DNA from: Phormidium tenue FACHB-886
GTDB lineage: Bacteria > Cyanobacteriota > Cyanobacteriia > Elainellales > Elainellaceae
NCBI RefSeq assembly: GCF_014764505.1
Contig: NZ_JACXWX010000001.1
Coordinates: forward strand, 496,001-560,000
Direction: 5' to 3'
DNA length: 64,000 nt
Below the pieces are notes generated by a model. The model searched no databases, had not been told where the DNA came from, and saw only the letters and a list, made by a program, of their open reading frames with translations. Numbering within the stretch: the first letter of the stretch is position 1; each line of letters begins with the position of its first letter. The position numbers and the translations under genes are program-made. Below, piece after piece: positions 13,412 through 17,344 of this stretch.

Positions 13412-14596
13412 TTACAAGCAGCAGGTTGACCGAACTTGGGCGGTTAGCCGCTGCAAAACCTGCTTCAGCACCATTGCTGTCCAGTCAATGTCCTCTAGGG
13501 TAGTTTGCCGCCCCAGCGTTAGCCGGATCCCAGTTTTAGCAGCGCGATCGTTATAGCCCATTGCCTGCAAAATGGGGCTTGGAACCAGCTTGCCGCTGTG
13601 GCAGGCAGAGCCAGCGCTGATACCAATGCCTGCTAAATTCATCTGCCGGACGATCGTTTTGCCGCTGAGTCGTTCCCCTTCGGCGCTTTGCCAATCTGCC
13701 CAGCGCAAAGAAAAACTGACGTGGTGCGGTAGGCGATGCAGGCGATCGCCAGTAGGCACTAACTCCGGTACATCTGCCAGTTGTTCAAACAGGCGCTCGC
13801 GCAGCTGCAGCAGGCGGGATGTTTCACCGGCTAATTCTTGGGCGGCTAGCTCGGCGGCAGCACCAAAGCCAGCAATCAGCGGCACGGCTTGAGTTCCCGA
13901 TCGTAGCTTGAACTCTTGCCCGCCTCCCTGCAGCAGCGGCAGCAGCCTGACACCGGGACGCACATACAGCGCCCCTGCCCCTTGCGGACCATATAGCTTG
14001 TGGCTAGACAAGGAGAGAAAATCAACCGGGATCTGCTGCACATCAATGGGCAAGCGTCCGGCTACCTGTACGGCATCTGTATGAAAGAGCGCGCCATGAT
14101 CGCGGGTGATTTGCCCCAATGCTTCAATCGGCTGCAGCGTTCCCACTTCGCTCTGTCCATAGATGACCGAGACCAGCACCGTATTCGCTTGCAAAGCCGC
14201 TTTCAAATCCAGCGGATTGATCCGTCCTTGCCGGTTGACGGGCAGTTGTGTGACTTGCCAGCCCCATTGCTCCAGCAGCCGAGCAGGTTCAGCGATCGCC
14301 GAATGCTCGACGCTAGAAATAATCAAGTGCTGTGGTGTTTTGTATTGCTGCGCCACCCCCAGCAGCGCTAAATTATCGGCTTCTGTGCCACCCGAGGTAA
14401 AGACGATCGCGTCAGCGCTAGCGTTGATTAAATCGGCAACCTGCATCCGCGCTTGCTCTAGGCAAGTGGCAGCACGCCCGCCCCACTGATGCAAACTGGA
14501 AGGGTTACCCCAGTCTGTAGTCATCGCCTGCTGCATAGCGGCGATGGCTTCTGGGCGAGTGGGGGTGGTAGCGCTGTAGTCGAGATAGATTTGCAT
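13412..14596 (-). CDS. Cysteine desulfurase (NifS/IscS-like)
   Basis: A pyridoxal-phosphate enzyme taking sulfur from L-cysteine as a protein persulfide for Fe-S cluster or other thiocofactor synthesis. The 394-residue form starting MQIYLDYSATTPT is used; the frame extends 15 codons upstream to 14641 without family support. Visible are the SSVEHSA segment (cofactor-stacking histidine), the PLP-lysine loop SLSSHKLYGP and the persulfide cysteine loop SGSACHSG. The short spacing of that loop fits class I. It converges with the GGDEF-EAL gene, with 34 bases between stops. Which of the cell's several desulfurases it is cannot be told. Confidence 0.93.
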   Translation of the reverse strand: MQIYLDYSATTPTRPEAIAAMQQAMTTDWGNPSSLHQWGGRAATCLEQARMQVADLINASADAIVFTSGGTEADNLALLGVAQQYKTPQHLIISSVEHSAIAEPARLLEQWGWQVTQLPVNRQGRINPLDLKAALQANTVLVSVIYGQSEVGTLQPIEALGQITRDHGALFHTDAVQVAGRLPIDVQQIPVDFLSLSSHKLYGPQGAGALYVRPGVRLLPLLQGGGQEFKLRSGTQAVPLIAGFGAAAELAAQELAGETSRLLQLRERLFEQLADVPELVPTGDRLHRLPHHVSFSLRWADWQSAEGERLSGKTIVRQMNLAGIGISAGSACHSGKLVPSPILQAMGYNDRAAKTGIRLTLGRQTTLEDIDWTAMVLKQVLQRLTAQVRSTCCL

Positions 14597-14708
14597 AGAT
14601 TGGGCTGTGGTGTTGCCACACGGACTTTCATCTTTGAGCATAAGGCGGATTAATGCCTAGATCACCCGACTTCTTACATAAATTCTGATTGAAATCAGGG
14701 GCATTGCT

Positions 14709-15185
14709 TCAGGAAGTTTGCTCAGACTGCAGCGTTTCTTCGTCTGGGTTACTTTCGGTGCTCTCTGATGAGTTTTTCTGTTCCGGGCGTTTGGTAATTT
14801 GGGTCGGCATCATGCTAGCAAACTTACGGGGTGAGCTATCTGCAGCAGGGGTGGAAATCGGGTTCATTTCTTTAAGTGCTGCCTCGCCCATCCGAATTTG
14901 CAAGTTGGGTCCCGATCGCGCCAGCCGAATCACTGCACCATCTTGAATGAGGACTTGTGTGATCCGCTTGCCTTCCAGATAGGTGCCATTTGTGCCTAAA
15001 TTGATGACTTCCCAATGCCGTCCTGATCGGCGCAGCTCCACATGGTGTCTCGACACAACAGCGCTGTAGAGAACAACCTGATTGTCAGCCGATCGCCCAA
15101 TCCGAATTAAAGATTCATCGGTAAACGTCCAAACCTGAACCGGAATCTCTTTAACGGGATGAAGGAGAGAGAGAGTAATCAACAC
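14709..15185 (-). CDS. FHA domain protein
   Basis: A 158-residue protein with an N-terminal forkhead-associated domain, which binds phosphothreonine peptides. The signature residues are present: IGRSADNQ, SRHHVEL and LGTNGTYLEG (about residues 29-75). The C-terminal 60 residues are Ser/Pro/Glu-rich and look disordered. It could read out a Ser/Thr kinase such as the one encoded at 48668; that link is inference. The gene lies upstream of the desulfurase on the same strand, about 110 bases apart. Confidence 0.9.
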   Translation of the reverse strand: MLITLSLLHPVKEIPVQVWTFTDESLIRIGRSADNQVVLYSAVVSRHHVELRRSGRHWEVINLGTNGTYLEGKRITQVLIQDGAVIRLARSGPNLQIRMGEAALKEMNPISTPAADSSPRKFASMMPTQITKRPEQKNSSESTESNPDEETLQSEQTS

Positions 15186-15519
15186 AAGTAAGGCAGCGCT
15201 AGAAACAGTAAGGCAATGAGCTAATGCCCCGTTGCTTGTTTAGCTCATCTACACGACTATATCTTATGCTGCTCGAAGCGAAACGGGGGTTCTAAATCCT
15301 GACCCGCTCCCCCACCCATAGCAGTAAAGGGAACTCGCGGTCCTAGCGACAGTAGGTCAATTGTTGCAATGTTCTGCTGAAAAGGGCACGCATTAGCTCC
15401 ACCAAAAGAGCGAGTTTAATTAGCGACTTGTGGGACAAGAACGTCTGCCCAGCGAACGATCTAACTAATAGGCTATCTAAAGCAATTAAGGATACTAAAT
15501 CTCAAGGAGATTATATTAT
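15186..15519. other. 334-base intergenic stretch at the edge of a decayed island
   Basis: No coding frame is convincing. It contains the promoter region of the FHA gene on one side and of the broken secreted-protein gene on the other, including an A/T-rich stretch (ttatattat) and AAGGAGA just before the ATG at 15520. Confidence 0.5.
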
Positions 15520-15672
15520 ATGCAACTGAACGATTTCGCAAAAGCACTTTCCAATGTAGGACGCTGGATTGCTACAGCTTTATTTTGTGTACCGGCGATC
15601 GCTTTGGTTTGGTAGGGCGCATCCTTCTCAACCCCTGCAAGTAGTTCTATACCCAATTCGTCTGCCGTTACT
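15520..15672 (+). pseudogene. Broken 5' end of a secreted-protein gene, paralogue of the gene at 16241-16660
   Basis: From the ATG at 15520, preceded by AAGGAGA, the frame reads 31 codons and stops at TAG (15613-15615). Its product MQLNDFAKALSNVGRWIATA... aligns with the start of the intact gene on the opposite strand (MKLNSFTKRLSIAGRWIAAT...). The stop falls where the intact gene has CAG in TGG-CAG-GGT, so one C-to-T change explains it. Reading past the stop continues a signal-peptide-like segment GASFSTPASSS until IS-derived sequence begins near 15672. A 31-residue membrane peptide could still be made, so loss of function is inferred. Confidence 0.75.
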
Positions 15673-15674
15673 GG

Positions 15675-16110
15675 CGCAAAGCGTTTCCGCGATTAGCTCA
15701 GTTACCAACGCTTTGTCGAATGGATGACATCGGTCCTAATTCCACTGTGTGCCTACTTGCGTTACTGCTTTGGCAACTGCACTGGCATCAGCTTTATGGA
15801 CTTGACCAGTATCAAGGTCTGCCACAATCAAGGTCTGCCACAACCGCCGCATCTCCTCGCACAAGGTGTTCAATCCCCTAGCCGTTCGAGGGTAAAACGT
15901 TGGTGGACAGTTCTTTGGGTTTAAGCTGCACCTCGAGCCATTATTGAATCGGTGATTGACCAGTTGAAGAACATTTCTCAGATCGAGCATTCTCGTCACC
16001 GTTCACCCGTCAACTGCTTGGTCGATTTGGTCTGTGGATTGATTGCCTACTGTCACCAGCCCAAGAAACCTTCCCTCCTAGCTGATGCCTTTTTGCCTAA
16101 GTCTGTTTAA
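15675..16110 (+). pseudogene. IS982-family transposase remnant, frameshifted and internally deleted
   Basis: Pieces of an IS982-type transposase are readable in order. KAFPRL appears at about 15678, then, one frame off, LSYQRFVEW and TGISFMDLTSIKVCHN. Next comes RRISSHKVF in another frame after a 16-base tandem duplication at about 15810-15841. FFGFKLHL follows and joins directly to [19 protein letters not shown] and the C-terminus ending [10 protein letters not shown] at the TAA at 16110. Roughly a hundred residues between FKLHL and RAIIE, including catalytic residues, are deleted. It cannot encode an active enzyme. It sits against the broken secreted-protein gene, which it probably interrupted. 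Confidence 0.88.
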
Positions 16111-16125
16111 TCCGAACTCACGTTC
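16111..16125. repeat. Possible IS982-like terminal sequence
   Basis: TCCGAACTCACGTTC directly follows the transposase stop. A matching word, CCGAACTGACGTTA, occurs at 17056-17069 with no transposase attached. Shared CCGAACTnACGTT suggests both are ends of related insertion elements; this is inference. Confidence 0.45.
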
Positions 16126-16127
16126 AC

Positions 16128-16196
16128 TGTAGGGGTAGGCTTGCCGTGTGGGATTTCAACAAATTGAAATCTCGATAGCAGAACCCACCCCTACTG
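16128..16196. repeat. Nested hairpin repeat, MITE- or REP-like
   Basis: Outer arms CTGTAGGGGTAGGCTTGC and GCAGAACCCACCCCTACTG pair imperfectly; inside them GATTTCAA-CAAA-TTGAAATC (about 16152-16171) is a perfect stem. The 11-mer GAACCCACCCC recurs as its reverse complement at 16929-16939. Confidence 0.6.
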
Positions 16197-16240
16197 AGGA
16201 TACTTCAGTCATTCATACCGAATGCAGAAGCCGTTCGCGA

Positions 16241-16660
16241 TTAGTCAGCGGCATCCTTAGCTTTATTAACATTCGTGTCGATCGCTTTCTTAGTCCGCGA
16301 AGCATCTTCCTCTGAACGGTTCACGATGCGATTAGCATCTCTGCCCGCTTTGCGGCTGATCGGGTTGTCATCACCTAGTGTGTCTTGAACTTTTTCGGCG
16401 TTGCTTTGTGCAGCGTCCTGAACCTTTTCCTTCACGGTTTCCACAAAGCTCTTATTGGAGCGTTTAGTATCTTCTGCTGCGTTGTTGGCGTCTCTGTCTA
16501 GGTTAGCTGCAATCAAGGTTCCGTGGGGTGCAGCCATTGCTGTCGTGTTGGCAAGAAAAGCACCCTGCCAAGCAAAAGCCGTTGCACAAACAAACAGCAG
16601 CGTTGCTGCAATCCAGCGTCCTGCAATCGAAAGCCGTTTAGTGAAAGAATTTAGTTTCAT
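16241..16660 (-). CDS. Small exported alanine/asparagine-rich protein, function unknown
   Basis: A 139-residue protein with a signal peptide (hydrophobic core ATLLFVCATAFAW, probable cleavage after TTAMAA). The mature part is highly charged and helical, with repeated patterns such as KVQDAAQSN, KVQDTLGDD and NKAKDAAD, which recall LEA-like or CsbD-like stress proteins; family membership is not established. A truncated, stop-containing paralogue of the first 45 codons lies on the opposite strand at 15520, so the two form an inverted pair around the IS982 remnant. Confidence 0.75.
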   Translation of the reverse strand: MKLNSFTKRLSIAGRWIAATLLFVCATAFAWQGAFLANTTAMAAPHGTLIAANLDRDANNAAEDTKRSNKSFVETVKEKVQDAAQSNAEKVQDTLGDDNPISRKAGRDANRIVNRSEEDASRTKKAIDTNVNKAKDAAD

Positions 16661-17344
16661 ACGATACTCTTTGTCACGTCAGTATCCACTTCTACTCTAG
16701 GAATTGCATCGGCTGAATCCTCCTCCAGACACAGGTTCGCCTGTATCGATCGTCTCATTGACTCTGGCTTTAGCCGATCGACCGACTGCTGTTTCTGGGT
16801 AAGTGTGCAAGTTTCGGAGGCAATGGAGGTTGTTTTTGAACGAATGTTAGAGGTTGAAGGAGTATCGAATGTCAGTTTCGCATAAGCCTCCTTGCCCTCA
16901 AGCCTTCTTCCCTCCAAGGAGGGGTAGAGGGGTGGGTTCAGCTAGAACAGGCAGGGGTAGTCCGATTCGTTGCGACAGGGTTAGACCCACCCCGTTGGTG
17001 CAGACACCTCTGCCAGGAGGGGATGAGAAGCGAGAAGTTGAGGCGATTCGGTATCCCGAACTGACGTTAGATTAAAATTCTTTTTGTGTAAAAGTCCTGC
17101 GTAATGGGGCTTCTGCACAAAAAGGTTTGTTCCAATGTATGCGCACAGCGCTGTTACTAATTTATCGTTTTTGCATATCTACGAATTAAATTTGTGTAAG
17201 TTCTATAAAACCCATTGTGCTCTTAAGTAAGCAAGGTTGTGAGTATCCTAATTCAATACCTGTAAAGATATTGATAGAAGATTTCAAGAGGTAAAGCACA
17301 GATTGCTTTCTGACAGCCACGTAGTTTTCAAAGGAGCTTAAATT
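16661..17344. other. Gene-free stretch with decayed repeat fragments
   Basis: No convincing gene. An imperfect inverted structure at about 16910-17022 carries GGGGTGGGT (16929-16937) opposite ACCCACCCC (16985-16993), flanked by CCTCCAAGGAGGGG and CCAGGAGGGG; such words occur in dispersed cyanobacterial repeats. An IS-end-like word lies at 17056-17069. The rest (17070-17344) is A/T-rich and featureless. Confidence 0.6.

Follow-up and report, generated by a model that had tools for sequence, protein, structure and literature searches.

Does a broken reading frame that lies beside an intact homologue represent a failed duplicate, or did the two copies reach the same place by separate routes? The question is raised by a locus in the window, a stretch of 64,000 nucleotides, which sits on an 873-kb contig of a cyanobacterial genome (8.9 Mb, 255 contigs). 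An open reading frame of 31 amino acids (15520-15615, + strand, from the ORF list) faces here an intact gene for 139 amino acids (16241-16660, - strand), and the remains of an insertion sequence (IS) lie between them. The preliminary description took this arrangement for an inverted duplication, followed by insertion of the IS and decay of one copy.

The broken copy and the IS982 remnant

The codon alignment of the short frame with the start of the opposite-strand gene bore out the match described before, 17 of 31 residues and 62 of 93 bases being equal over codons 1-31. When the host genome was searched in full with the 139-residue protein, the protein itself came first and then the short copy at E 9.9e-6, the third place having an E value of only 1.08. 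The homology of the short and the long copy is real and beyond chance. The stop codon TAG at 15613-15615 stands where the intact copy has CAG, as had been noted, and a glutamine occupies this column in 63 of 78 relatives; of the others, 6 have a gap and 9 a different residue. The tryptophan that precedes it is kept in 73 of the 78. Homology to the gene ceases at about 15637, in codon 39-40 of roughly 147, where IS982 sequence starts, so that roughly the last 100 codons are gone whatever the stop does. The chief lesion is the takeover by IS982 at about codon 39-40 rather than the TAG; the stop at codon 32 is either a second lesion or arose together with or after the IS982 cut.

The fragment as a whole, hereafter the stump, comprises about 39 codons of the 5' part of a gene (15520-15637, + strand), as deduced from homology, trees and the alignment of relatives, its 3' limit being the start of the IS982 similarity at about 15638. 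It belongs with the genes here called type A, a label of convenience for all members of the family outside the type B clade described below, which does not imply that type A is itself a clade. The stump is preceded by a type A leader with the ribosome-binding site AAGGAG (15480-15519, + strand), recognized by its identity to type A genes: the last 27 bases are 85% identical to the leader in genome G009 and 74-78% identical to those of seven further type A genes, and 8 of the 27 are equal to the leader of the intact copy. Upstream of the stump, 3 of 35 other genomes of the order gave matches, all of them short and confined to the leader or to a stretch of 30 bases.

The IS expected between the copies was identified as IS982 (15638-16124, + strand). 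Profile matches to its transposase were obtained at 15952-16110 with NF033520 (E 1.3e-5; 24.9 bits, below the cut-off of 130) and PF13612 (E 1.5e-4), and a tblastn comparison of an IS982 transposase with the remnant gave E 9e-25, with further pieces back to about 15638. The similarity opens at residue 61-68 of the transposases of Leptolyngbya boryana and Cyanobacterium sp. Dongsha4 and reaches the transposase C-terminus at about 16104-16110; residues of about 61-153 are found in several frames, followed by 235-291, the two parts being joined at about 15934. Of the terminal inverted repeats the right one alone is present, with the end motif CCGAACTCACGTT at 16112-16124 (+ strand). The IS982 elements WP_217983190.1 and WP_026148520.1 of cyanobacterial plasmids have a similar right end, and the fragments of the remnant are 49-73% identical to them in protein; unlike these elements, the remnant has lost its left end together with the first ~60 transposase residues, has suffered an inner deletion and is broken into fragments in differing frames. 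It is by itself not mobile, and no further copies of it were found in the host genome. A 16-base unit is repeated in tandem at about 15812-15850 inside the remnant, where it shifts the frame.

Several smaller features adjoin the pair. A palindrome (16129-16194), read from the letters and giving only a weak chance match in Rfam, occupies the spacer 3' of the intact gene. On its other side lies a possible miniature element with imperfect inverted ends (inverted pair I4, 16864-17072), whose right end (CCGAACTGACGTT) is similar to that of IS982; over the window as a whole the motif is no more frequent than chance would give. A composite transposon with an IS982 end on one side and the end of an IS982-like element on the other was considered and set aside on the same ground. 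At 17068-17125 there is a short palindromic repeat, the first ~30 bases of which match at least 33 other places in the host genome.

The protein family and the segment shared with another genus

The intact protein is predicted to have a signal peptide with an AxA-like site, followed by a charged, Ala/Lys/Asp-rich and probably helical remainder. Pfam gave nothing above cut-off for it (best E 0.05) and scattered weak matches only for its relatives, and no solved structure was found for the family. A match to VirB10 (E 4e-4, 19.6 bits against a cut-off of 374) was discarded as low-complexity. A role as a stress protein would be a guess. When a profile of 12 rows was run against 388 genomes of the class (E <= 1e-6), 86 genomes matched, 85 of them with one copy and only the genome of the window with two. 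The search with the long protein covered 98 genomes, the window's own and relatives (E <= 0.01), and 30 of them matched; two rows are weak, that of G020 (E 0.0035, inside a 610-residue frame) and a second match in G028 (E 0.008, with stops). In a tree built from 30 full-length proteins, the intact copy forms with those of G012, G005 and G023 a clade with support 100/100 and a long stem of 0.46, which is referred to as type B; the homologues and this tree assign the intact gene to it.

The closest relation of the intact gene was found in G012, a genome of a different genus from the host of the window. By DNA alignment the segment 16072-16858 (- strand) is common with L060 (contig JACQYI010000053.1 of G012), at 93.9% identity over 788 aligned columns, and the similarity ends sharply on either side. 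The segment holds the IS982 tail, the spacer, the intact gene and its upstream region; in the non-coding flanks 185 of 196 bases upstream and 155 of 166 downstream are equal in the two genomes. The intact copy and that of G012 (G012:C48, on the same contig as L060) share 93% protein identity, in conflict with the divergence of the neighbouring genes, which are 66% (FHA) and 65% (map) identical in protein between these genomes. The segment stops just beside the possible miniature element mentioned above, which adjoins it upstream.

The shared segment includes the final 53 bases of the IS982 remnant, so that the IS end adjoined the type B gene before both genomes shared the segment. Since tail and spacer are common with G012, this portion of the IS arrived together with the intact gene, and the earlier proposal that the IS was inserted between fresh duplicates does not hold.

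No second copy at the 94% level was found when the segment was searched as DNA against 386 genomes of the phylum; 19 genomes matched, the window's own included, the other matches being of 66-76% and covering only part of the gene. The match to G012 came from separate searches, among them that with the long protein, and not from the 386-genome DNA search. A plasmid collection gave no DNA match to the segment and, at the protein level, one distant match on a Gloeothece plasmid. L060 (1-7284) is a patchwork, the other parts of which match scattered places in the host genome, the longest of them at 79-87%. Pieces of this patchwork reach up to 94% identity to the host genome, and the contig carries repeats common to several genomes. 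The G012 copy sits on a contig of 7,284 bp from a metagenome assembly, for which misbinning is possible; a second DNA match in G012 to its largest gene, for glycerol kinase, was looked for and none was found, which speaks for correct binning of L060 without proving it.

Vertical descent would ask for a grouping of the copy of G012 with that of its genus-mate G025. This grouping was rejected (p-AU 5e-33, or 1.5e-27 with the window's copy added), so that the gene conflicts with the relationships of the genomes.

Origin of the two copies

The position of the copies cannot tell which of them is native, because neither was found between the FHA and map genes in the relatives' loci examined. The FHA-domain gene lies beside a gene for a NifS-like cysteine desulfurase (13412-15185), and this pair is kept in 13 of the 29 relatives' loci examined. 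The FHA tree places the host genome nearest to genus g13, with modest support (85/77) and on a long branch, and the NifS tree, of only 14 rows, places it with the g13 member G034 (98/96). Among the members of g13, G012 has type B and G025 a copy outside the B clade, while G031 and G034, assemblies that are 72% and 68% complete, gave no family match. This pattern favours type A as the resident and type B as the arrival from outside.

The local inverted duplication of the preliminary description accords with the adjacency, inverted orientation and homology of the copies and with the IS remnant between them, and of its elements the homology and the broken state of one copy stand. The duplication itself is contradicted by tests on the first codons, which rejected the short and the intact copy as nearest relatives (p-AU 0.00296; 0.0019 with the leader added to the codons) and likewise a group of the two with the G012 copy (0.00363). 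The copies are moreover too diverged for a recent event. In the 31 codons the stump is less identical in protein to its neighbour than to copies of other genera (65%). The trees, together with a leader that is unlike that of the intact copy and like those of type A, indicate that the stump was not copied from its neighbour. A local duplication is thus already refuted unless gene conversion with a different type A gene has changed the stump, and it can be given hardly any credence. The tests do allow the short copy to join all four type B copies (p-AU 0.225; 0.37 with the leader), and this agrees with a history of old paralogues, in which an ancestor possessed A as well as B, one of them was lost in nearly all lineages, and the host kept both until A broke. 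The long B stem fits such a history, as does the 70-72% protein identity of the intact copy to the type B proteins of G005 and G023, which is close to the 65-67% of the FHA proteins of the same genomes. Very many losses would be needed, as no other of the 86 carriers has two copies, and the 94% DNA identity to G012, flanks included, would still demand a transfer; we therefore consider old paralogy rather improbable.

The short frame might also be a working membrane peptide of 31 residues under selection. As the preliminary description had remarked, its ribosome-binding site is good, and with the leader whole the frame may be translated. In addition pN between the stump and type A genes (0.283) is no higher than among these genes themselves (0.254-0.384). 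A recent truncation fits such a value equally well, 31 codons give little power, and the value is no proof of selection. The signal cleavage site is absent, none of the 78 relatives has a stop at that column, and a conserved product of 31 residues was seen in none of the relatives examined. A selected peptide is accordingly very unlikely.

The explanation that we favour, and hold to be reasonably probable, is that the type A gene lost its 3' part and that horizontal transfer on exchanged, IS-associated DNA brought in a type B homologue. Either an IS982 residing at the type A gene or DNA that carried type B and was linked to IS982 would have joined the two, by insertion or by recombination between IS copies. 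Later deletions would have taken away the 3' part of the type A gene and, from the IS, both its left part and an internal stretch. Type B would then have been left as the sole full-length member of the family, now presumably supplying the function, and the stump would be the former resident gene in its broken state. The replacement of a resident gene by a horizontally acquired homologue is known as xenologous gene displacement. The locus resembles such cases in that the family is single-copy, the intact copy conflicts with the relationships seen in the FHA, map and NifS comparisons, and a broken copy of the presumed resident type (15520-15637) lies alongside. It differs in that the stump is still visible, across an IS remnant, and in that a replacement of function is putative.

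A candidate hairpin in the leader

The leader of the family was examined at 96 loci with a family match, of which 93 could be cut (3 had no fitting ATG), giving 78 distinct rows of leader and protein. The 78 leaders have in common a motif of about 40 bases that ends at the ATG (e.g. window 15480-15519, L177, L193 and L206) and can be folded into a two-part hairpin that would cover the ribosome-binding site, a structure picked after the sequences had been seen. The z-score of the fold averages -1.43 and is below -1 in 46 of the 78. The arms pair better with their own partners than with those of other rows (none of 5000 permutations reached the observed value, relatedness being uncontrolled), and in the outer stem 540 of 699 cells are paired (0.773), against at most 0.616 when the arms are slid. 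Under a tree-based null, 2 of 500 draws reached the excess pairing of the outer stem and 37 of 500 that of the inner stem; compensatory double changes were not significant (85/500 and 49/500). RNAalifold gave no structure on the leader alignment, and Rfam gave no leader match at four loci of the family. Conserved pairing in the leader appears moderately supported. A TAGAAT-like box in the 5' arm could instead be a promoter element. In the stump, the inner stem can be read as kept and the outer stem as having mismatches.

RNA thermometers, such as the leader of Synechocystis hsp17, offer a comparison: like these, the putative hairpin would stand just before the ATG and mask the ribosome-binding site, and unlike them the family leader is without an Rfam match at the four loci. 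It is tempting to speculate that the leader, kept even on the stump, represents an RNA element of cyanobacteria that is as yet undescribed. Its hairpin, in two parts and reaching to or into the start codon, would mask the ribosome-binding site and control how a small exported protein, possibly a stress-related one, is translated. In type B the hairpin would be rewired with a different sequence, so that the B transfer may have exchanged the control element along with the protein. We put this forward as a tentative possibility.

The case is mostly one of ordinary genome wear and exchange, and an event of this kind is already known. Its value lies in that the gene that was probably replaced and the one that probably replaced it both remain legible at one locus. 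It illustrates that a broken homologue next to an intact gene is not necessarily a failed duplicate. The transfer of segments a few hundred bases long beside IS ends is a plausible route for gene swaps. The leader is the sole part that could prove new, and it would provide research on cyanobacteria with a concrete candidate for a regulatory hairpin.
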